This document shows, one piece after another, positions 49,976 through 61,538 of a DNA stretch of 64,000 bases. The DNA comes from Betaproteobacteria bacterium (GTDB lineage: Bacteria; Pseudomonadota; Gammaproteobacteria; Burkholderiales; SHXO01): assembly GCA_025356655.1 (NCBI GenBank), contig JANXRW010000004.1, positions 1-64,000 of the forward strand. Direction: 5' to 3'. The notes beneath the pieces were generated by a model. It searched no databases. It was not told the DNA's origin and saw nothing but the letters and a program-made list of their open reading frames with translations. The position numbers were made by a program, and so were the translations under genes. Position 1 is the first letter of the stretch, and every line of letters begins with the position of its first letter.

Positions 49976-51514
49976 CTAACGCCGTAGACTCACCGGCCCC
50001 AGAGGCGCCAGGGCGGCGCGCGCGGCAGAGGCGCCCTGCACCCTTAGCCCAGGGACAGCGCTGCCACCGCCGGCGATGCTCCCGCCGGCCAGCCCCGCCG
50101 TGGAGCGATAACCCGCAGAGCCCCCGAAGCTCGTGGTGTGAGTCCCATCATCAGGGCTCGAAGAGCCGATGAAGATGAGACCCAGGCGTTCGGCCTTGGC
50201 ACCGGCCACCACCCCCCCCACCGCGGCGAAGCTGCAGGAGCCCACCCCCGAGGAGGAGCAATTGAGCGAATCGCTGAACCGCGAGCCTCCCGCGGAAATC
50301 TGCAAGGACGTGGGCGAGGCGCTCGACAGCGTGAGGACTTGACCCGGCAGGGAGAGTTGCAGCCCGCTGATGTTGAGCGAGGTGTTGAGGGTGTCCAAAA
50401 CCACCGTTCCGCCGTTGGTGATGGGCACGACGCCCGAGTGACTGGCCGACGGGTAGTTCGTAGTCCAACTCACGACGCCGGAAATGAGCGTGAAGTTGAG
50501 AAAGCGGCGGCCACCGCCCGTCGTGGAATCCACCTGGACCGGCGTGCCCGCGGTGTAGTGCCGATACTCCCCGGTGCTGGGGGACTGGGTTGTACCCCAG
50601 GCGAGGATGCCGTCATTACCGACAGCGGGCACGCCGCCCACCAAGGCCGGCGCAGAGAAGGTGACGGTGCCCGGCGAGACAATCATGGAAACCGCGCGCG
50701 ACACAAAGGTGACCTGACCCGGCTGAGAACCGGGGACTTGCAGCGAACTACCATCGTAGTAGGCGCTGGTCAGGTCTCGCGTACCGGTGAACTCGTTCCC
50801 GCCCAGGGTGGCGTTGCCGCCCGTGGAAGTCGTGTCGTTGGTACTGGAGTAGGTGTTGTTCGCCGAGGGCGGCGTATTGACCTGGGGCGGCCGAGCCCTG
50901 TGCTTCGGCGTCTGGTCTAGGCCGTTGATCACGTAAGCGTCGCCGGTACTGAAGGTCTGGCAGCCACCGGTGCCGCAGACCACGATCCCGCCGTCGGCCA
51001 CGTCCCCGGACACCGTCTGAGCCCCGCCGGTCCCGGGAACGTAGTCAGCCGTGTAGGCCGTGCCGCGGATGCCGATGGTGGCCACGGTGGTGCTGAGCTG
51101 GTAGGCTTGGTGGTTACTCTTGCCGATGAAGCCGGTCACGGTACGAAGGCCGCCCTTCAGCAGGCTGAAGAAGCCCTTTTCATCGCCGTCGGGCTTGCCC
51201 GCATAGCGGTACTGATCGATGCGAAACTCGCTCCCCGGCTTGAGCGATACGAAAGCGCCGTCGGTGAAGCGCAGCTGTACCCGGCCATCGCCGGTCAGGA
51301 TCGTGTCCCCCTCGGCCAGCTCCGTCCCGCGCGAAAGCGGGCGCGCGGCCGCCCCTGGGGCGGTAGCGGTCGCGCCACCGAAAGCGAATTCCACTCGGGC
51401 CGCGGGCGCAGCCTGCGCAGCCATCGGGAAAACCGCTAAAAGCGCCAACGCCACTGGCGTCAGCATCCCGCCCGGAACCCTGTGCGCTACCAACCTGCCT
51501 TGGAACGTTTTCAT
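49976..51514 (-). CDS. FecR-domain secreted protein with a possible TbpB-like C-terminal beta-barrel region
   Basis: Signal peptide; GTELAEGDTILTGDGRVQLRFTDGAFVSLKPGSEFRIDQYRY...GGLRTVTGFIGK...YQLSTTVATIGIRGTAY; C-term SCSFAAVGGVVAGAKAERLGLIFIGSSSPDDGTHTTSFGGSAGYRS. Confidence 0.8.
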   Translation of the reverse strand: MKTFQGRLVAHRVPGGMLTPVALALLAVFPMAAQAAPAARVEFAFGGATATAPGAAARPLSRGTELAEGDTILTGDGRVQLRFTDGAFVSLKPGSEFRIDQYRYAGKPDGDEKGFFSLLKGGLRTVTGFIGKSNHQAYQLSTTVATIGIRGTAYTADYVPGTGGAQTVSGDVADGGIVVCGTGGCQTFSTGDAYVINGLDQTPKHRARPPQVNTPPSANNTYSSTNDTTSTGGNATLGGNEFTGTRDLTSAYYDGSSLQVPGSQPGQVTFVSRAVSMIVSPGTVTFSAPALVGGVPAVGNDGILAWGTTQSPSTGEYRHYTAGTPVQVDSTTGGGRRFLNFTLISGVVSWTTNYPSASHSGVVPITNGGTVVLDTLNTSLNISGLQLSLPGQVLTLSSASPTSLQISAGGSRFSDSLNCSSSGVGSCSFAAVGGVVAGAKAERLGLIFIGSSSPDDGTHTTSFGGSAGYRSTAGLAGGSIAGGGSAVPGLRVQGASAARAALAPLGPVSLRR

Positions 51515-51609
51515 GCTTTGCCTCCACCGGGCCCTGGCACCCGCCAGTGCGCCCTTGGTCCCGCAAACCGGCCAGGGGCTACTCCCCTCGCCGCCTTAAG
51601 CTCAGGGCA

Positions 51610-52950
51610 TCAGAACTCGCGCCGCGCCGTGACAAAGACCTGAGTCTGATCGAACTGGTTGATGGGGATGTTCGAACGGTTGTTGACGTAGCTAAGCTGC
51701 GGCGAGATCACCCAACCCTTCACGGTGTTGATGCGCAGCCCTAACGACCCAGTCAATTGCAAATCGCCGCGGTCGAGGTTGAACAAAGGATCTGTTCCGC
51801 GATAATCGCGCCGCTCGGCCGAGCCGGAAAGGAACAGGCTCATGCGTTCGCTGATCCGCTTCGTCCCCCCCAGCCGCAGCCCGATCGGGTTGTGGCCCAG
51901 GTATTCGAAAGCACCGAGCTTGGACTCCTCCACACCGCCATACACCCCGGCGTAGACAAGCGGATCCCCGCCGCGGAACGTGTGCGCGTAGCCGAGGCCC
52001 AGGATGTAACGGTTGGCATCGCGCCCAAGCTGCTCCGGGTAGCTAAGCGACGCATACTGCCCATAGACCGTCATCTGGTTGTTGGCGTCGTAGTCATGGG
52101 TCCACTGAAAAGTAGCCCCAACCGCGTCACGGTACTCGAAGCGCAGTGTCGGATCATCCAGGAAGAACATGTTGGCCTGGGCGATGGCGGTGAAAGTCTC
52201 CTTGCCGATTTGCTTGGTAACACCCAGGTACGCATCCAGGTAGCCGTTGCCGAAATCCGGCTGGTCGACACCGAAACGCTTGCTGACACTGAGCCCGCCC
52301 AGCAGGCCCAGGCCGCCACCCAGCGGCGTCGAGAAATTGAGACCGCCGGTTGCGGAGACGAACCGGTCCTGCTTCACCGCGGAGCGATTATTGACGGTGA
52401 GCACGGCGTTGCCGAGGGCAGGAACGGCCACGTCGGTCAGGGCCGTCGCACTATTGATGTTGCTATCCCAGCCGAGGGCGAATTCCAGAAAGAACTGACT
52501 GGCGAAGCGATCACGCAGCGATAGGTGCTCGATGGCATCGAGGTACTGGTCGACACGTTTCAACTCCTCCCCGTCGGAAGTCTTGGTCTTGAGCGCCTGA
52601 AACTCCTTGCGCGCCGCGTCCGTCTCCCGGAGCGCGAAATAGGCCCGCGCCAGCGCGGCCTTCGCGGTGAAGTTGTCTGGTTGCAGCGCCACGACCCGCT
52701 CGAGTGCGAACACGGCCTGCGTGGGTTTCCCCGCCTCCAGTGCCGCCGAGCCCAGCAGTTGGTCGAAGGCGGGGTCCCCCGCCCGCTCCGACTCCAGGGG
52801 GGCGAGCAGGGCGTAGGCTGCCGGCGCATCCTTGGCCACGAGCAGGCTCCTGGCGCGCGCCAAGTCCGCATCCTCCGCATGACTGGTCAGCGCCCCACAC
52901 AGGAGGACACCGAGTACCGTCGACAATGCCAAGCGCTTCAGAATCTTCAT
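51610..52950 (-). CDS. TPR plus C-terminal DUF560/Slam-like outer-membrane beta-barrel protein
   Basis: Signal peptide; TPR segment (QAVFALERVVALQPDNFTAKAALARAYFALRETDAARKEF); C-term RRDYRGTDPLFNLDRGDLQLTGSLGL...PQLSYVNNRSNIPINQFDQTQVFVTARREF ending in Phe. Confidence 0.75.
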   Translation of the reverse strand: MKILKRLALSTVLGVLLCGALTSHAEDADLARARSLLVAKDAPAAYALLAPLESERAGDPAFDQLLGSAALEAGKPTQAVFALERVVALQPDNFTAKAALARAYFALRETDAARKEFQALKTKTSDGEELKRVDQYLDAIEHLSLRDRFASQFFLEFALGWDSNINSATALTDVAVPALGNAVLTVNNRSAVKQDRFVSATGGLNFSTPLGGGLGLLGGLSVSKRFGVDQPDFGNGYLDAYLGVTKQIGKETFTAIAQANMFFLDDPTLRFEYRDAVGATFQWTHDYDANNQMTVYGQYASLSYPEQLGRDANRYILGLGYAHTFRGGDPLVYAGVYGGVEESKLGAFEYLGHNPIGLRLGGTKRISERMSLFLSGSAERRDYRGTDPLFNLDRGDLQLTGSLGLRINTVKGWVISPQLSYVNNRSNIPINQFDQTQVFVTARREF

Positions 52951-53057
52951 CGCGCCCCCAGGGCCCTGTTCACAAAAAACATTGAGATTACGCGGGAATA
53001 TACACCGAATTTAAGGCTTTGCAGCAGAATGGCCCTCCCGGGGCGCAACCCCTGGGC

Positions 53058-54035
53058 TCAATAGGCGAACCGGTAAGCGCGCAGCCCCTGCGCTTGCCCA
53101 GCCTCGATGAGCGATCCGGCGTCCGCCATCCACGCGCGCCAGCGGAAGTTCACCACCACGTCAAAATCCTCCGCCACCTGGGCGTAAAATTCGAGCGCTG
53201 CGGTCAAGGCTGCGCGCAGGGCATCCCCATCGCCCAAGCGGGCAAGCACCTCCAGCAGTACCAGGCTGGCATTCAGGCATTCCACCGGGAACTCGCGGCT
53301 GCACGAGGCCGCCGCGATCCCCAGCGCGTCGCGCGCCCCCGCCAGGTCGCCCGCACAGTAGCGTCCGTAGCCGAGGAACCAGTGATACCGAGTGCACTGC
53401 GGCTCGTGGGCCAACGCGCAGACCAGGCGCCGGCGGTAGAACGCCCGCTTGGCGGGCAGGTTGGCAAGGTCGGGGGCATGCGCCAGCACCGCACCCTCTT
53501 GCCAGAGCGCCTGCCAGCCCAGCGCCCGGAACGAGGGCTGCATGTTTTCGTGCACGCGACCGCGGCTGCTCGCTCCCCGCCGGAAGATCGCGAGCTTATA
53601 GTCATCCACGAAGTCGCCGCCCAAATCCGTCACCCAGCGCAGGAATAGCCCTTCGGCTTCGGGCTCGGGTGCCGCGATGAGGCGCATGAGGTCCTGCCGG
53701 GAAATCCGCTCGTCCGCGTCCAGCGAGAGAATCCAGGGGGTCCCCAGCGCCTCGTAGGATAGGTTGCGCGCGGCCGCCTTGGACAGGCACTCCGACTCGT
53801 GGAGCCGCGTCTGCAGCGCGGTGATGCCGAACCGATGGCGCAGGATCTCCCGGGTGGCATCCCGCGAGCCGGTGTCGACCACGGCGATCTCGTCGAACAG
53901 GTCGTGAATGGACGCCAGACAGGAAGCGATGCGCGCCTCCTCGTCTCGCACGATCATGGCCAAGCCGATCCGCACGGCGTCCGGCCGAGACTCAGGCCGC
54001 GGGGAGTTCCGAACGGAACTCCTCGTACTTGCCAC
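53058..54035 (-). CDS. Family 2 glycosyltransferase with C-terminal TPR-like region
   Basis: GLAMIVRDEEARIASCLASIHDLFDEIAVVDTGSRDATREIL...WILSLDADERI. Confidence 0.85.
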   Translation of the reverse strand: MASTRSSVRNSPRPESRPDAVRIGLAMIVRDEEARIASCLASIHDLFDEIAVVDTGSRDATREILRHRFGITALQTRLHESECLSKAAARNLSYEALGTPWILSLDADERISRQDLMRLIAAPEPEAEGLFLRWVTDLGGDFVDDYKLAIFRRGASSRGRVHENMQPSFRALGWQALWQEGAVLAHAPDLANLPAKRAFYRRRLVCALAHEPQCTRYHWFLGYGRYCAGDLAGARDALGIAAASCSREFPVECLNASLVLLEVLARLGDGDALRAALTAALEFYAQVAEDFDVVVNFRWRAWMADAGSLIEAGQAQGLRAYRFAY

Positions 54036-55332
54036 CCGGACCCCGAGGGATCGCGTCGCAGTAGCGGATGCTCACCCGGAAGGCAAAGCCCAGCCGCTCG
54101 ACCGCGCCCGAGCGCAGCTGTGCCTCCTCTGCGGCGGTGAGCACCCGGGTGGAAACGAGGCGAACCTCGATGTCCTCGCGGCCGGTCTGCGCGACCTGGA
54201 TCTGCCGCACGCTGTCGAGGCCCCGGAAGGCGTAGCCGATCATCGGCCAGCGCTGTTGCCCATCGGGCAGCAAAAGCATGTTGCGCACTCGCCCAAGGAT
54301 GCGCGAGAGCACGGGCAACCCTCGCCCACAGGGGCAGGGCGGCCCCACCTCGGCGAAGTCCCCGATCCGGTAGCGCAACAGCGGCATCGCAAAGTTGTGC
54401 AAGGCGGTGACCACGACCTGCCCCACCTCGCCAGGTGCGCAGGCCCGCCCTTGTTCGTCGAGGACTTCCATCAGTGCCACCTCGGACTGCACGTGGTAGC
54501 GCCCGGACAGGGGGCACTGGAGTGCCAAATAGCCGCACTCCTGAGTGGAATAGACGTCGCTCACCTCCACCTGCCAGGCCTCCCGGACCAGTTCTCGCGT
54601 CTCCTCGGTGAGGACCTCGGCGAAGCTGCGCGCTTCGCGTAGCCCCGGAGGCGGCCAACCCACGCGCAACCAGTACTTGGCGAGGGCACCGAGGTTGGTG
54701 GCGTGAGTCTGCAAATAGGCCGGCCGGAGCTCGCGCAGGACCTTGGCTTGCTGCTCTATCGACTCGCGGATGGGCTGGACTACGCAGGGCCCCGTGCTGA
54801 GCAAGGGTGAACCCCCGGCGTCCAAGTACCAGCCCGGCAGACGGGCGGGTTCCGCATCCCGGATGGAGAGCAGGACGCTGTTCATGTCGCGCCCGTGCCA
54901 GAGGTGGTCCCGGACGGAACAGACCTCCGTAAAAAAAGCCGCCAGATCGCTCGACCAGAAGGCAACCGGCGTGCCGGTGGAACCCGAGGTGGCGCCCGGC
55001 CGCGCCTGGCCGTGGGAGGGCGGCAGGGACAGCGCGCGCAGGCTTACCCCGGCCGCCTGCACGTCGCCGCGGCCGAGCAGGGGGAGACGGCGCAAATGCT
55101 CCAGCGGTGAATCCCCACCGGCTTCGGGCAGGCGCTCACGCCAATAGGGCACCTGCGCGCGGGCGTGACGCAGCAGTTCCTGGAGCTGCTGCGCCTGCAG
55201 GTCTGCCAGCGCAGCCGCGTCCAACCATTGGGTCTGTTGCAGTTGCATCTGCATGGCGAGCATCACGCTGGCCGCCGAGGACGGGATGGCTGGCCAAGCG
55301 ACGCCGGGGACGCAGGAATTGGCTAGCAGCAA
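53992..55332 (-). CDS. Putative adenylate-forming enzyme (phenylacetate-CoA ligase / CapK-like)
   Basis: ATSGSTGTPVAFWSSDL; YSTQECGYLALQCP; LLRYRIGDFAEVGPPCPCGRGLPVLSRILGR; start uncertain. Confidence 0.82.
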   Translation of the reverse strand: MLLANSCVPGVAWPAIPSSAASVMLAMQMQLQQTQWLDAAALADLQAQQLQELLRHARAQVPYWRERLPEAGGDSPLEHLRRLPLLGRGDVQAAGVSLRALSLPPSHGQARPGATSGSTGTPVAFWSSDLAAFFTEVCSVRDHLWHGRDMNSVLLSIRDAEPARLPGWYLDAGGSPLLSTGPCVVQPIRESIEQQAKVLRELRPAYLQTHATNLGALAKYWLRVGWPPPGLREARSFAEVLTEETRELVREAWQVEVSDVYSTQECGYLALQCPLSGRYHVQSEVALMEVLDEQGRACAPGEVGQVVVTALHNFAMPLLRYRIGDFAEVGPPCPCGRGLPVLSRILGRVRNMLLLPDGQQRWPMIGYAFRGLDSVRQIQVAQTGREDIEVRLVSTRVLTAAEEAQLRSGAVERLGFAFRVSIRYCDAIPRGPGGKYEEFRSELPAA

Positions 55333-55365
55333 GGACGGAGACCGCTCGCCGCAGAGCGCAAGGGA

Positions 55366-55395
55366 CCCGGCGCCATCACCGTCGATGGCGCCGGG
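55366..55395 (-). terminator. 12-bp perfect hairpin immediately downstream of the decarboxylase gene (terminator-like, no strong U-tract)
   Basis: CCCGGCGCCATC-ACCGTC-GATGGCGCCGGG. Confidence 0.5.
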
Positions 55396-55404
55396 AGGCC
55401 GACT

Positions 55405-56580
55405 TCAGGAAATGAAGCGGACTTCGGGCAGGGGGAACCCGTTGAACTGGCTCGCATAGGCCGTGGTGTAGGCGCCGGCATTGGGGATATACACAAAATC
55501 ATCCGCCACTAGATCCTCGGGGAGCAACTGATCGCGCATGACGATATCCACCGAATCGCAGGTGGGTCCTGCCACGCACCAGGAAGTGGGTGCGCCCTGG
55601 CGGTCGGTGAGCACGTTGTACTCCAGCCCTTCGACCGTCTCGATGATGCCACCAAACATGCCCGCATCCAGATAGGCCCAGCGCTTGCCCGCCCGGGTGG
55701 CCGTTCCGACCACGCGGCAGACGAACCAGCCGGCATCGGAGACCAGAAAGCGACCGGGCTCGGCCATCACCCGCACCGAGGGTGGCAGGTCCTCCAGGGC
55801 GCGCGTGATCACCGCACCAATGGCCTCAATGGACGGGATGGCCTTGGTGTGCTGCACCGGGTAGCCGCCGCCCAAGTTCAGCAGGCGCGGGTTCAGGCCC
55901 ATGAGGCGCATCTTGCGCATGAGGCGCTTGGCGCTCTCGATGCCCACACGCCAATTCTCCGGGTTGCGGCACTGCGAGCCCACGTGGAAGGTGACGCCCG
56001 CCAGATCCGCCCCCAGGCGAGCTGCCTCGGCGATGATGTCGTCGGCCTCGCTCGGATGGGCGCCGAACTTACCCGACAGCGGCCAGTCGCTTCCCACATT
56101 GGGCGCATCGATGCGCACGTAGAGCTTCGCATCGGCCTTCACCGACACCACCTTCGCCAGTTCCTCGAGGCTGTCCACCACGTACCATTCGACGCCACGT
56201 GCCGCGGCCACCTGCAGGAACGCGCGGGATTTCATGGGGTTGCTGTAGTAGATCTCGGCCGCGGGTACGCCCAGGGAGAGCAGCAGATCCAGTTCCGAGA
56301 TGGACGCGATCTCGAATCCGCAACCCTCTTCGATCAGCGTCCGCAGCACGCGGGGATCGGGATTGGCCTTAACGGCGTAGTGCGGATGGACCCGGGGCAT
56401 GGCCGCGTGGAAGCGGCGGCATTTAGTGCGGATGATGTCCGCGTCGAGCAGGAGGACGGGCTTTTCGTAGGCGCGGTCGATGGCCTGCTTGACCGCAGGG
56501 AACGGGATGCTGACTTCAGCGGGAGTGTCGAGCGCGGGCTCGGAGGGGGATTCGGTGTACAGCGCACGGCGCAGAGGCAT
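55405..56580 (-). CDS. Type III (alanine racemase-fold) ornithine/lysine decarboxylase
   Basis: HYAVKANPDPRVLRTLIEEGCGFEIAS; HVGSQC; NLGGGYPV; EPGRFLV; CVAGPTCDSVDIV; NAGAYTTAYASQFNGF. Confidence 0.9.
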   Translation of the reverse strand: MPLRRALYTESPSEPALDTPAEVSIPFPAVKQAIDRAYEKPVLLLDADIIRTKCRRFHAAMPRVHPHYAVKANPDPRVLRTLIEEGCGFEIASISELDLLLSLGVPAAEIYYSNPMKSRAFLQVAAARGVEWYVVDSLEELAKVVSVKADAKLYVRIDAPNVGSDWPLSGKFGAHPSEADDIIAEAARLGADLAGVTFHVGSQCRNPENWRVGIESAKRLMRKMRLMGLNPRLLNLGGGYPVQHTKAIPSIEAIGAVITRALEDLPPSVRVMAEPGRFLVSDAGWFVCRVVGTATRAGKRWAYLDAGMFGGIIETVEGLEYNVLTDRQGAPTSWCVAGPTCDSVDIVMRDQLLPEDLVADDFVYIPNAGAYTTAYASQFNGFPLPEVRFIS

Positions 56581-56600
56581 CTGCTTCTCCTTGGGAGACG

Positions 56601-56666
56601 CTACGTGACGGGGATGTGAAGGTTGCTCAGGTCGACGCAGGGGAAGTAGTTCCTTTGGCTTGTCAT
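56601..56666 (-). CDS. 21-aa leader/short ORF upstream of the decarboxylase
   Basis: ATG 56666 to TAG 56601: MTSQRNYFPCVDLSNLHIPVT*; SD AGAGGAGGT just upstream; ends 20 nt before the decarboxylase ATG; absent from the ORF track because of length. Confidence 0.6.
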   Translation of the reverse strand: MTSQRNYFPCVDLSNLHIPVT

Positions 56667-56717
56667 GATGACCTCCTCTGAGGATAGTACGGCGGACCGC
56701 CAGTCAGGCGCCGGGCC

Positions 56718-56746
56718 ATTATAGGGCCAACTCACCGGGAATCCAA
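56718..56746 (-). promoter_or_regulatory. Sigma-70-type promoter for the short ORF-decarboxylase transcript
   Basis: Minus strand TTGGAT, 17 nt, TATAAT (perfect -10). Confidence 0.7.
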
Positions 56747-56819
56747 CGCGTTGTTCCGGGCGTACACAAGGCCCCTGGTCGGGCCGGGCGCAAGAGTTGT
56801 GCCCACCCCACGGCTGCGC

Positions 56820-58229
56820 TCAGGTCTTGGGCAGGGTGACCCCGCGCTGCCCCTGGTATTTCCCGCCCCGGTCGCTATAGGACACCTCGCAAATATCATC
56901 GGCATCGGCTTCCAGAAAAATCATCTGGGCGACACCCTCGTTGGCGTAGATGCGCGCGGGCAAGGGCGTGGTGTTGGAGAACTCCAGTGTCACGTGGCCT
57001 TCCCACTCCGGCTCCAGGGGCGTGACGTTGACGATGATGCCGCAACGCGCGTAGGTGGAGTTATGCACCACCAGATCGGCCGCGAGGAAATTGCGCAGCC
57101 GCGGCACGCTGATATCGTAGACCTCCGCCGCTCCCGCCGGGGTGATGCGTGCCACTTGGTCCCAGTAGAGATCGCCCGCCGGTGCCTGTGCGGAGACGGA
57201 AGTTCCACCCACCACCTGCCAACGCACCGCCGCGCGCGCCGCCTCCCCCAGCAGCCATGCCGTCGCAGCCGTGCCCGCAGGCAAATCCAGTCCGTCCAAC
57301 AGGGCCTGGGCATCGCAGGGCTCGGCCGGTTGCAGCGCCCAGTCCCCGGCCAGCGGCAGCAGGCGGGTGAAACACCCGAGGCGCAGAAATAAATGGTGCA
57401 GGCCTTCCGCCCGCTCGCGATCCCCGGCCGCGAGCATGAATCCGGCCGCCTGCTCCATCGCGGCCGCCAGGAGGTAAGCGCGCAGGAAGGCCCGCAAATC
57501 CCCGGGGGCGGCGCGAAAGACCGCGGCGGGCAGACCAGCGCCGGCACCGGCGCGAGCCCATTCACGCCCGAGCCCAGCGGCCCCGGGAAGCGCGTCGCGC
57601 CCGGGCGAGGGGATGCGTCGGGCGGCGGCGATCCGGTCCCCAGGGCGCAGGTCCTCCAACGCCGCCCACCCACTCGGCTGCCGGAAGGGATGGTTTGCAG
57701 TGGCACGGATGCGCAGGCCGGCTCGGGTTTCCAATTCGAACACGGGCCTACGGCCCTGGGCGAGCAGGGCAGACACCCCCGCCGCGGCGATGCGCCCGCC
57801 GGCGAGTCCGAAGGTCCGGCGACCGAAACCCATTTGCTCCAGGGGCAGGCGCTCGCCGCTAGCGGCGTCCACCACCAGGGTATCCCCCGTGAGGCACTTC
57901 CCCAGGCAGATGGTCAGCACGTTGCGCGGAATGCGGAAGGACTCCACCGTGCGCGCCAGGGCGAAGGAATTGGGGGGGATGATGCAGGAGTCGCCGCTCA
58001 CGTCGACGAAGGAGCGCGGATCGAAGTTCTTCGGGTCGACGATGGTGCTGTTGATGTCGGTGAAAAGCTTGAACTCATTGGAGCAACGCACGTCGTAGCC
58101 ATAGCTGGAGGTGCCGTAGGACACCACGCGGTTGCCGTTGACCTCCTTCACCTGGCCCGACTCGAAGGGGTCGATCATGCCCTGCTCCAGCGCCATGCGC
58201 CGGATCCAGCGGTCGGACTTGATGCTCAT
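56820..58229 (-). CDS. dcd: dCTP deaminase precursor containing an in-frame intein
   Basis: N-extein MSIKSDRWIRRMALEQGMIDPF...PRNVLTICLGK; C-extein STYARCGIIVNVTPLEPEWEGHVTLEFSNTTPLPARIYANEGVAQM...YQGQRGVTLPKT; together a normal Dcd; ATG 58229. Confidence 0.95.
   Translation of the reverse strand: MSIKSDRWIRRMALEQGMIDPFESGQVKEVNGNRVVSYGTSSYGYDVRCSNEFKLFTDINSTIVDPKNFDPRSFVDVSGDSCIIPPNSFALARTVESFRIPRNVLTICLGKCLTGDTLVVDAASGERLPLEQMGFGRRTFGLAGGRIAAAGVSALLAQGRRPVFELETRAGLRIRATANHPFRQPSGWAALEDLRPGDRIAAARRIPSPGRDALPGAAGLGREWARAGAGAGLPAAVFRAAPGDLRAFLRAYLLAAAMEQAAGFMLAAGDRERAEGLHHLFLRLGCFTRLLPLAGDWALQPAEPCDAQALLDGLDLPAGTAATAWLLGEAARAAVRWQVVGGTSVSAQAPAGDLYWDQVARITPAGAAEVYDISVPRLRNFLAADLVVHNSTYARCGIIVNVTPLEPEWEGHVTLEFSNTTPLPARIYANEGVAQMIFLEADADDICEVSYSDRGGKYQGQRGVTLPKT
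57060..57896 (-). mobile_element. Intein (279 aa) inserted in Dcd
   Basis: Block A CLTGDTLVVDAASGERLPLEQM; block B ELETRAGLRIRATANHPFRQPSGWAALEDLRPGDRIA; blocks F/G VYDISVPRLRNFLAADLVVHN, then +1 Ser. Confidence 0.95.
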
Positions 58230-58254
58230 GCCGGGACACCCCCGTCGGTTCGGC

Positions 58255-59346
58255 TCACGTGTTCTTGATGACGATCTTCGGAAAACTTTCGCTGAAGTCC
58301 TGGGCGCGCTCGGCGATGCGCGCGGCCATGCGCCGGGCGATTGCACGAAAGGCGCCGGCCAGCGCGCCGTCGGGATCAGCAACCACGGTGGGATTGCCGG
58401 AGTCCGCCTGCTCGCGGATGCGGATGTCCAGCGGCAGCGAGCCCAACAACTCAACCCCCTCCTCCTGGGCGAGCCGCTCCCCACCGCCGCCGCCGAAGAT
58501 GTGTTCCTCGTGGCCACAGGCGGAACATCGATGCGTGCTCATGTTTTCCACCACGCCGAGAATGGGCACATTCACCTTCTCGAACATCTTTAATCCCTTT
58601 CGGGCGTCCAGGAGCGCAATGTCCTGGGGCGTGGTGACGATCACGGCACCGGTGACGGGAACCTTCTGTGCCAGCGTGAGTTGGATGTCGCCGGTGCCGG
58701 GCGGCATGTCCACGATGAGGTAATCGAGATCGCGCCAGCGCGTGTCGCGCAGCAGTTGCTCCAGGGCCTGCGTGACCATGGGGCCGCGCCAGACCATGGG
58801 CTGCTCCGCATCGATCAAGAATCCGATGGACATGCCCTGCACGCCGTGGCTCAACAACGGCTCGAGCGTCTTGCCGTCGGCTGACTCCGGCCGCTGGCCC
58901 GCCAGTCCCAGCATCTGCGGCTGCGACGGCCCGTAGATGTCGGCATCGAGCAGGCCCACGCTGGCCCCTTCGGCGGCGAGCGCCAGGGCCAGGTTCACCG
59001 CCACAGTGGACTTGCCCACGCCGCCCTTGCCGGAGGCGACCGCAACGATGTTACGCACACCGGGGACGAGCGGCATGGGGCGCTGCACGGCATGGGAGAC
59101 GATCTTCACGCTGACCTCGGCCTGCGCGGCAGTGACGCCGGGGATCTGCCGTAGGCGCGCTTCGATCTGTTCACGAACCGACCCCAGCACGCTGCGCGCG
59201 GGATAACCCAGCACGACTTCCACCCGGACGGCTCCCCCGTCCACGTGGATCGCCCCGACGGTCTTGCCGGTGACGTAATCCCGTCCGGTGGTGGGATCCA
59301 CGGTCTGGCTCAGGGCACTCTGGACATCGGCATGACTCACTGACAC
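58255..59346 (-). CDS. apbC: Iron-sulfur cluster carrier protein (Mrp/ApbC P-loop ATPase)
   Basis: IVAVASGKGGVGKSTVAVNLALAL; CSACGHEEHIFG; GTG start at 59346 suggested. Confidence 0.94.
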   Translation of the reverse strand: MSVSHADVQSALSQTVDPTTGRDYVTGKTVGAIHVDGGAVRVEVVLGYPARSVLGSVREQIEARLRQIPGVTAAQAEVSVKIVSHAVQRPMPLVPGVRNIVAVASGKGGVGKSTVAVNLALALAAEGASVGLLDADIYGPSQPQMLGLAGQRPESADGKTLEPLLSHGVQGMSIGFLIDAEQPMVWRGPMVTQALEQLLRDTRWRDLDYLIVDMPPGTGDIQLTLAQKVPVTGAVIVTTPQDIALLDARKGLKMFEKVNVPILGVVENMSTHRCSACGHEEHIFGGGGGERLAQEEGVELLGSLPLDIRIREQADSGNPTVVADPDGALAGAFRAIARRMAARIAERAQDFSESFPKIVIKNT

Positions 59347-59456
59347 GGTGCGCTTCCTTGGGCGTTGCGAGAGAGGGGATTCTACCACTGCGTCCCCGCC
59401 TGGCCCTGTCCCGGGCCCCGGTTTGCTAGACTTGCCCCTTTGTTGCGGATGCGTCC

Positions 59457-61538
59457 ATGGCCTCTCGGAAGATTCTCGTCACCTCGGCACTGCCCTACGC
59501 CAACGGCAGCATCCACCTCGGGCACCTGGTCGAGTACATCCAGACCGACATCTGGGTGCGGTTCCAAAAAATGCGCGGCCATGAGGTCCACTACGTCTGC
59601 GCCGACGACACGCACGGCACCGCCATCATGCTGCGCGCCGAGCAGGAGGGCATCTCCCCCGAGGCCTTGATCAGCCGGGTCTGGGAGGAGCATCGCGCCG
59701 ACTTTGCCGGCTTCGGCGTGGGCTTCGACAACTTCCACAGCACCCACTCCGGGGAGACGCGGGCACTCGCGGAGGATATTTACCTGCGGCTGAAGGATCG
59801 CGGGCTGATCGCCGTGCGGCCGGTGGAGCAGTTCTACGATCCGATGAAGGCCATGTTCCTGCCGGACCGCTTCATCAAGGGCCAATGCCCCAAATGCAAC
59901 TCCAAGGACCAGTACGGGGATAACTGCGAGGTCTGCGGCGCCACCTACGCACCCACGGACTTGGTGGAGCCTTACTCGGTGGTTTCCGGGGCGAAGCCCG
60001 AACTGCGTACCTCCGAGCACCATTTTTTTGCCTTATCGGACCCGCAGTGCCGGGAATTCCTCGAGCACTGGACGCAGGCGGACGACCACCTGCAGGAAGA
60101 GGCGCGCAATAAGATCCGCGAATGGTTCGACCAGGGCCTCGGGGATTGGGACATATCCCGCGATGCGCCCTATTTCGGGTTCGAAATCCCCGGTGCGCCC
60201 GGCAAATATTTCTACGTCTGGCTCGACGCCCCGATCGGCTACCTGGGTAGTTTCCAGAATCTGGCGCAGCGGACCGGCCTGGATTTCGAGGCCTGGGCAA
60301 GGCCCGGCCCCGGCGTCGAGATGGTCCACTTCATCGGCAAGGACATTCTCTACTTCCACGCGCTATTCTGGCCTGCCATGCTGCGCTTCGCCGGCTACCG
60401 CACCCCGCACCGGGTTTTCGCGCACGGCTTCCTCACGGTGGACGGACAGAAGATGTCCAAGTCCCGGGGTACCTTCATCACGGCGGGGAGTTACCTCAGC
60501 GAGGGCTTGGACCCGGAGTGGCTACGCTACTACTATGCGGCGAAGCTCAACGCCACGATGGAAGACATCGACCTGAGCCTCGGCGACTTCGTCGCGCGCG
60601 TCAACAGCGACCTCGTGGGCAAGTACATCAACATCGCCAGTCGCAGTGCCGGATTCATCACCCGGCTCTTCGAGGCGCGCCTGTCGGCCCATCCGGACCG
60701 CCCGAGCGTGCTCGAGCGCCTTCTCGACCCGGCCACCTGGGACTTGGTGGGCCAGCTCTACGAGGCGCGCGAATTCAGCAAAGCCGTGCGCGAGATCATG
60801 GCGCTCACCGATCTCGCCAACCAGTACGTGGACGCGCAGAAGCCCTGGGAACTGGCGAAGCAAGAAGGCGAGCGCGAGCGCTTGCACCAGGTCTGCAGCG
60901 CAAGCCTGAATCTCTTCTGGCTGCTCTCGGTCTATCTGCGTCCGATCCTCCCCCGCGTGAGTGCGGAGGCAGCGACGCTGCTTGGTCTGGGCGCCGAGCA
61001 GATGGCCTGGGGTCAAACCCAGGCGCTCGGCGCGCAGCCCATCCGGCCGTACCGCCACCTGCTGACCCGCGTGGACCCCAAGCAGGTGGAAGCGCTCGTG
61101 GAAGCCAACCGCCCGACCATGCAGCCCGCCGCCGTGGCTAACACCACCGCAGCGCGTGCAGCCAAGCCCCAGGAGAAAACCGCCGTGGAAGCCCCTCCCG
61201 CAAGCACCAGCAGCACGATCACGATCGATGACTTCAACAAGGTGGAACTGCGCGTGGCGCGCATCGTTTCGGCCACGCACGTGGACGGCGCGGAGAAACT
61301 GCTCAGGCTGGAGTTGGACCTGGGTGGCGAGCGCCGTCAGGTGTTTGCCGGAATCAAGTCGGCCTACGATCCAGCGGTGCTCGAGGGGCGCCTCACGGTA
61401 ATGGTTGCGAACCTGCAACCGCGCAAGATGCGCTTCGGCGAGTCCCAGGGCATGGTCCTCGCGGCCAGCGGCGAGGGCCCCGGGATCTTCCTATTGGCGC
61501 CCGACGACGGCGCCCAACCCGGCATGCGCGTCAAGTAA
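59457..61538 (+). CDS. metG: Methionyl-tRNA synthetase
   Basis: [40 protein letters not shown]-terminal EMAP/tRNA-binding domain. Confidence 0.97.

Follow-up and report, generated by a model that had tools for sequence, protein, structure and literature searches.

A short ORF with its own promoter precedes an ornithine decarboxylase gene

The window, by which we mean the whole 64,000-nucleotide stretch of DNA analyzed here, carries the gene order apbC/mrp, dcd, a short leader ORF and a gene for ornithine decarboxylase (ODC). The features of the leader and the decarboxylase gene are as follows.

56718..56746, minus strand: sigma70-type promoter TTGGAT-N17-TATAAT (-35 at 56746-56741, -10 at 56723-56718, 17-nt spacing), read from the sequence; an equivalent is conserved before orthologous leaders
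Downstream of TATAAT, minus strand: AGAGGAGGT, which contains the Shine-Dalgarno sequence, then the leader ATG at 56666, read from the sequence
56667..56678, minus strand: very strong leader Shine-Dalgarno sequence and spacer GAGGAGGTCATC; the block AGGAGGTCATC is conserved across families
56601..56666, minus strand: leader ORF of 21 codons, peptide MTSQRNYFPCVDLSNLHIPVT, stop TAG; orthologues in ten families
56601..56633, minus strand: conserved core of the C-terminus, D-L-x-N-x-H-I-P-x-T-UAG, where arrest and sensing are proposed to take place, from the leader alignment
56581..56600, minus strand: 20-nt spacer cgtctcccAAGGAGaagcag with the ODC Shine-Dalgarno sequence AAGGAG, which starts 9 nt past the leader stop
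55405..56580, minus strand: ODC, a fold-III (alanine-racemase-like) PLP enzyme of 391 amino acids with its ATG at 56580, from Pfam and structural relatives

The initial annotation had described the 21-residue ORF, its promoter and Shine-Dalgarno sequence, the 20-nt gap and the ODC start, and our re-reading reproduced each of these to the base. Its description of the promoter as consensus holds for the -10 element, which is perfect, but not for the -35 element, in which TTGGAT matches TTGACA at 3 of 6 positions; for this reason, a consensus scanner does not list the promoter. The initiation signals had also been judged too good to be incidental, and comparison with shuffled sequence likewise speaks against chance: a pattern for the C-terminus of the peptide matches the window once and none of 100 shuffles, and 52 of 71 leader loci have a promoter scoring 10/12, as compared to 3 of 71 shuffled controls. 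The commonest promoter among the orthologs is TTGATT-N17-TATAAT, ending approximately 45 nt 5' of the leader ATG.

The decarboxylase matches the Pfam families Orn_Arg_deC_N (3e-56) and Orn_DAP_Arg_deC, and its closest solved relatives are the lysine/ornithine decarboxylase 2plj and the eukaryotic ODCs. It has the PLP-binding barrel, the C-terminal sheet domain and the GPTCD motif (here within GPTCDSVD) of fold-III ODCs.

The neighboring dcd gene, which encodes dCTP deaminase (56820-58517, minus strand), contains an in-frame intein of approximately 270 amino acids (Pfam Intein_splicing) that starts with CLTGDTLVV and ends with VVHN ahead of a serine. The dcd orthologues in L002, L005 and L018 lack the intein and read ...ICLGK-STYARCG.

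The leader is confined to one order and lies next to ODC

We searched for relatives of the leader with the window peptide against 199 genomes of the order and then with an HMM of twelve members against 398 genomes. These searches place the leader directly 5' of the ODC gene in many genera of the order. The 72 distinct orthologous leaders belong to a single betaproteobacterial order, in which they span ten families and occur in Nitrosomonas, Nitrosospira and Nitrosovibrio, among others. When the C-terminal motif was written as a DNA pattern and applied to the genomes of 85,462 species, 63 loci were found, 62 of which lie directly 5' of an ODC gene; the 63rd (L108) ends at a contig edge. The named hosts of these loci are mainly Nitrosomonas, Nitrosospira and Nitrosovibrio, together with unclassified Betaproteobacteria and Burkholderiales. 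Across the same 85,462-species collection, no leader was found before a gene other than ODC, and none was found in viral contigs. Beyond the order, the HMM finds no convincing leader in 369 genomes of the class, where the matches with E values of 0.02-1 are short and partial.

A survey that started from the enzyme finds an ODC of the window type in 74 of the 398 genomes of the order, and we inspected the DNA upstream of ODC in nearly all of these 74. A leader ending in P-x-T-stop is present in 36 genomes, again from ten families.

The C-terminus of the peptide and its stop codon are under selection

The core of the peptide across leaders is D-L-x-N-[LIV]-H-I-P-[VE]-T, reduced in variants to [HDQ]-[ILT]-P-[VEL]-T. 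Over the last ten codons, pN/pS is 0.16-0.27 (0.16 for all 21-codon leaders, 0.25 for 21-codon leaders found independently of the DNA pattern, and 0.26 for a thinned set), while the other two reading frames of the same codons give values of about 1.5 and 2.7-3.0, all above 1.4. Codons 2-11 are only weakly constrained (pN/pS 0.56-0.81). Synonymous codons are freely exchanged within the C-terminal core: proline is encoded by CCT, CCC, CCG and CCA in 31, 29, 8 and 4 leaders, asparagine by AAT and AAC in 36 and 31, and leucine by all six of its codons, and valine and isoleucine are likewise spread over many synonymous codons. The amino acid conservation with synonymous change that the initial annotation had proposed to look for upstream of ODC orthologs is thus abundant among the 72 leaders, and, judged by this pattern of substitution, the 21-codon ORF is a real, conserved peptide gene.

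The length of the peptide varies (13, 16 and 19-24 residues). In the short or divergent leaders MTADQFNLHIPVT, MTRQPADLINLQIPVT and MTSHNPCFDNKFDLHIPVT, the end alone is preserved, MTADQFNLHIPVT being the extreme of this shrinkage, and more distant leaders terminate in LDLPET, LDIPVT or QHTPVT. A length and an N-terminus that drift while the end stays fixed would fit a peptide whose acting residues are those closest to the peptidyl-transferase center.

The stop codon is UAG in 71 of the 72 leaders, the sole exception being a UAA (L063/L166). Given that the DNA pattern itself demands UAG, the fair figure is that for leaders found without the pattern, namely 30 of 31. In the same loci, UAG ends 11 of 63 ODC genes and 10 of 55 dcd genes (17-18%). 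The last sense codon, which would occupy the P site during termination, is ACG in 66 of 72 leaders (26 of the 31 that were not chosen by UAG), and UAG is followed by C in 57 of 72 (22 of the 31). UAG, the C that follows it and the ACG codon are apparent marks of a mechanism that acts at the termination step, and the ACG codon and the C suggest that the identity of the tRNA and a weak context for termination may play a part. The leaders show the amino acid conservation of the C-terminus beside a fixed stop codon that characterizes the termination-arrest class. Nucleotide conservation is also seen at the ACG-UAG junction and in the first codons, so part of the conserved signal may act as mRNA.

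The leader stop lies close to the ODC ribosome-binding site

Where it can be measured, the gap from the leader stop to the ODC start is 12-30 nt (mode 22; 20 in the window), and the core of the ODC Shine-Dalgarno sequence begins mostly 8-13 nt past the leader stop. By standard toeprint geometry, a ribosome that stalls when UAG occupies its A site is expected to cover approximately ten bases past the stop. Stalling at the leader stop would therefore place the ribosome over or directly against the ODC ribosome-binding site and keep a second ribosome from initiating.

We found little at the level of RNA structure. RNAalifold predicts no base pair common to 22 orthologous leader regions, individual leaders mostly fold no more stably than shuffled sequence, and Rfam has no match in positions 50000-60000 of the window. 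On these results, a structured RNA or riboswitch was rejected, and what is conserved is the peptide.

The block AGGAGGTCATCATGACA, an imperfect palindrome (GTCAT-C-ATGAC), is conserved at the nucleotide level. At other places in the genomes, this sequence simply serves unrelated genes as a strong ribosome-binding site. We read its conservation as probably the result of selection to load many ribosomes, and it may have a further role. The block as GGAGGTCATCATGA was considered as an ODC-specific element and ruled out, since it precedes unrelated ORFs too.

Proposed mechanism of control

The selection on the C-terminus, the fixed stop codon, the drifting N-terminus, the strong initiation signals, the short gap and the strict linkage to ODC make termination arrest the best reading of the leader. 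On balance, we lean toward a cis-acting leader peptide that controls ODC through nascent-chain-dependent stalling of the ribosome at its own UAG; the stalling itself, the participation of RF1, the effector and the sign of the control are all inferred from the features above. The regulatory mechanism is thus a well-supported hypothesis, as follows. The strong promoter and near-perfect Shine-Dalgarno sequence would load ribosomes onto the leader. At low effector levels, RF1 would free the peptide, and ODC, approximately 20 nt further on, would be initiated either by the ribosome that is terminating or by a new 30S subunit. At high effector levels, D-L-x-N-x-H-I-P-x-T within the exit tunnel would slow RF1-dependent release, and the ribosome parked on UAG would cover the ODC ribosome-binding site and turn ODC translation off.

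The most economical effector would be putrescine, the product of the pathway, or another polyamine, which would provide feedback control. A full-length arginine decarboxylase (speA) was not found in the window genome (68.6% complete) or in three relatives, so ODC may be the main source of putrescine in these four genomes. A relative (G015) from the Nitrosomonas-like family f16 has a full-length arginine decarboxylase.

Alternative explanations and known leader systems

The main rival is translational coupling without sensing, in which the leader feeds a weaker ODC start by termination and reinitiation and sets a fixed level of expression. The very strong leader Shine-Dalgarno sequence and the short gap would suit such a coupler, as would the survival of the leader Shine-Dalgarno block where the peptide has decayed, including one family (f23) in which a decayed ORF overlaps the ODC start. 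Coupling of this kind, however, needs neither specific C-terminal residues nor UAG, and both are strongly selected. Plain coupling is therefore disfavored, and we consider it unlikely.

A second possibility, which we consider improbable, is an arrest peptide that activates ODC in response to ornithine, as SpeFL (OrnR, orf34) does for speF in E. coli and Salmonella. In both cases, a short leader ORF lies 5' of an ODC gene, the enzyme downstream catalyzes the same reaction, and arrest at the stop codon (proposed here) would be involved, with a stop that is probably RF1-dependent. The enzymes differ, speF encoding a fold-I ODC and the window gene a fold-III ODC. SpeFL senses ornithine and undergoes metabolite-dependent termination arrest with RF1 inhibited (PMC8429421). 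Salmonella orf34 has 34 amino acids with Arg12-Arg13, lies in an mRNA with its start at nt 32 and that of speF at nt 516, and works via Rho and alternative folds (PMC6386406). The window leader differs: it bears no sequence resemblance to SpeFL, it has 21 residues (13-24 in relatives), and its stop lies 20 nt (12-30 in relatives) from the ODC ATG with no conserved fold found that an arrest could open. At this distance, a stalled ribosome should hide the ODC ribosome-binding site, which is the main reason that we prefer repression, the sign predicted here, to SpeFL-like activation. With neither a SpeFL-like peptide of about 34 residues nor a long leader with alternative folds at the locus, membership in the SpeFL/OrnR family was rejected, in agreement with the initial annotation, which had noted that the peptide does not look like SpeFL.

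The leader is not the alphaproteobacterial speF RNA motif (RF00518) either. That motif, too, lies ahead of fold-III ODC genes, though in other proteobacteria, but it is an RNA family of approximately 150 nt, and its ODCs are only 36-41% identical to that of the window. Its covariance model has no match in the window genome, and no H-I-P-x-T peptide was found at ODC genes preceded by RF00518; a relationship was rejected.

We also give a low probability to a nucleic-acid element, such as an operator or mRNA-binding site, in which the block AGGAGGTCATCATGACA or the ACGTAG junction is functional and the peptide incidental. The block is conserved as nucleotides even in decayed leaders, and ACG and TAG are nearly invariant, which would suit such an element. 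The strongest constraint, however, falls on the residues encoded by the last ten codons, where synonymous change is free, and the block, besides serving as an ordinary ribosome-binding site elsewhere, is absent from some intact leaders (L024, L119 and L142). A small trans-acting peptide, for example an antizyme-like regulator of ODC, is very improbable: the peptide is conserved and always lies beside ODC, but its conservation extends to the stop and the choice of stop codon, its N-terminus is free and shrinks until 13 residues are left, and no copy was found away from ODC.

Two other systems are instructive for the termination-arrest reading. TnaC, which senses tryptophan, also arrests at termination and conserves a few scattered residues of its C-terminus, among them Asp, His and Pro close to the stop. 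It depends on RF2, lies far from the gene that it regulates and acts through Rho, and in sequence, release factor, distance to target and the Rho route it is unlike the window leader. Like SpeFL, TnaC is by analogy a precedent for metabolite-dependent termination arrest. In the mammalian AMD1 uORF (MAGDIS), polyamines cause stalling at termination. The logic of product feedback proposed here would be similar, with a polyamine stabilizing the ribosome as it terminates on a very short ORF ahead of a gene for a polyamine enzyme, although the AMD1 uORF belongs to a eukaryotic, scanning-based system, has six residues and has no sequence relation to the window leader.

The leader-peptide family is genuine and, as far as can be searched, previously undescribed: we found no description of it in the literature searched, the coverage of which excludes most subscription journals. 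The earlier interpretation, which had offered a polyamine- or ornithine-sensing arrest peptide, a translational coupler or a small functional peptide, possibly of a separate class, is partly supported overall. More tentatively, and with doubt outweighing confidence, we suggest that the leader could represent a class of its own among arrest peptides that sense metabolites, independent of SpeFL, with sensing in the last ~7-10 residues and product feedback exerted by a ribosome parked over the ODC start. If so, leader peptides for ornithine decarboxylase would have evolved independently a second time; to our knowledge, few bacterial arrest peptides sense small metabolites. The hosts of this leader are nitrifying and related betaproteobacteria, in which polyamine control has been little studied, and the leader could tell whether bacteria have a polyamine-dependent termination arrest resembling that of the AMD1 uORF. 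The leader is readily testable, given its 13-21 residues, single UAG, 20-nt gap, many natural variants and lineages that lack it.

Some lineages have lost the leader and kept ODC

In the enzyme-first survey, a decayed remnant that retains the leader ribosome-binding site is present in 9 genomes, and the remaining inspected ODC-bearing genomes have no leader. Leader presence is strongly clustered when mapped onto a maximum-likelihood tree of 66 ODC proteins, requiring 6 changes as compared to 22.3 in shuffles. The remnants, along with two losses that fall among intact relatives, suggest that the leader is ancestral and decayed later. Since several lineages in which the leader decayed or was deleted keep ODC, the leader is dispensable in some backgrounds.

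In family f23 (L155, L160, L162, L164 and L165), the leader ribosome-binding site is intact and the peptide has decayed or been converted, leaving either seven codons (MTRTRNY or MTRARNY) or a longer, arginine-rich ORF that overlaps the ODC start by 16 nt. In genus g56, L178 and L176 show an apparent deletion of the leader such that ODC adjoins the former leader 5' UTR; their close relatives L172, L173 and L175 have an intact leader, which provides a natural leader-minus comparison. In family f19 (L184, L185, L187 and L188), ODC has the same promoter and no leader, and its 5' UTR of approximately 110 nt shares a different conserved stretch, GTGACTTGAAAAAGCTTTGATAGGAG, which is possibly another regulatory element.
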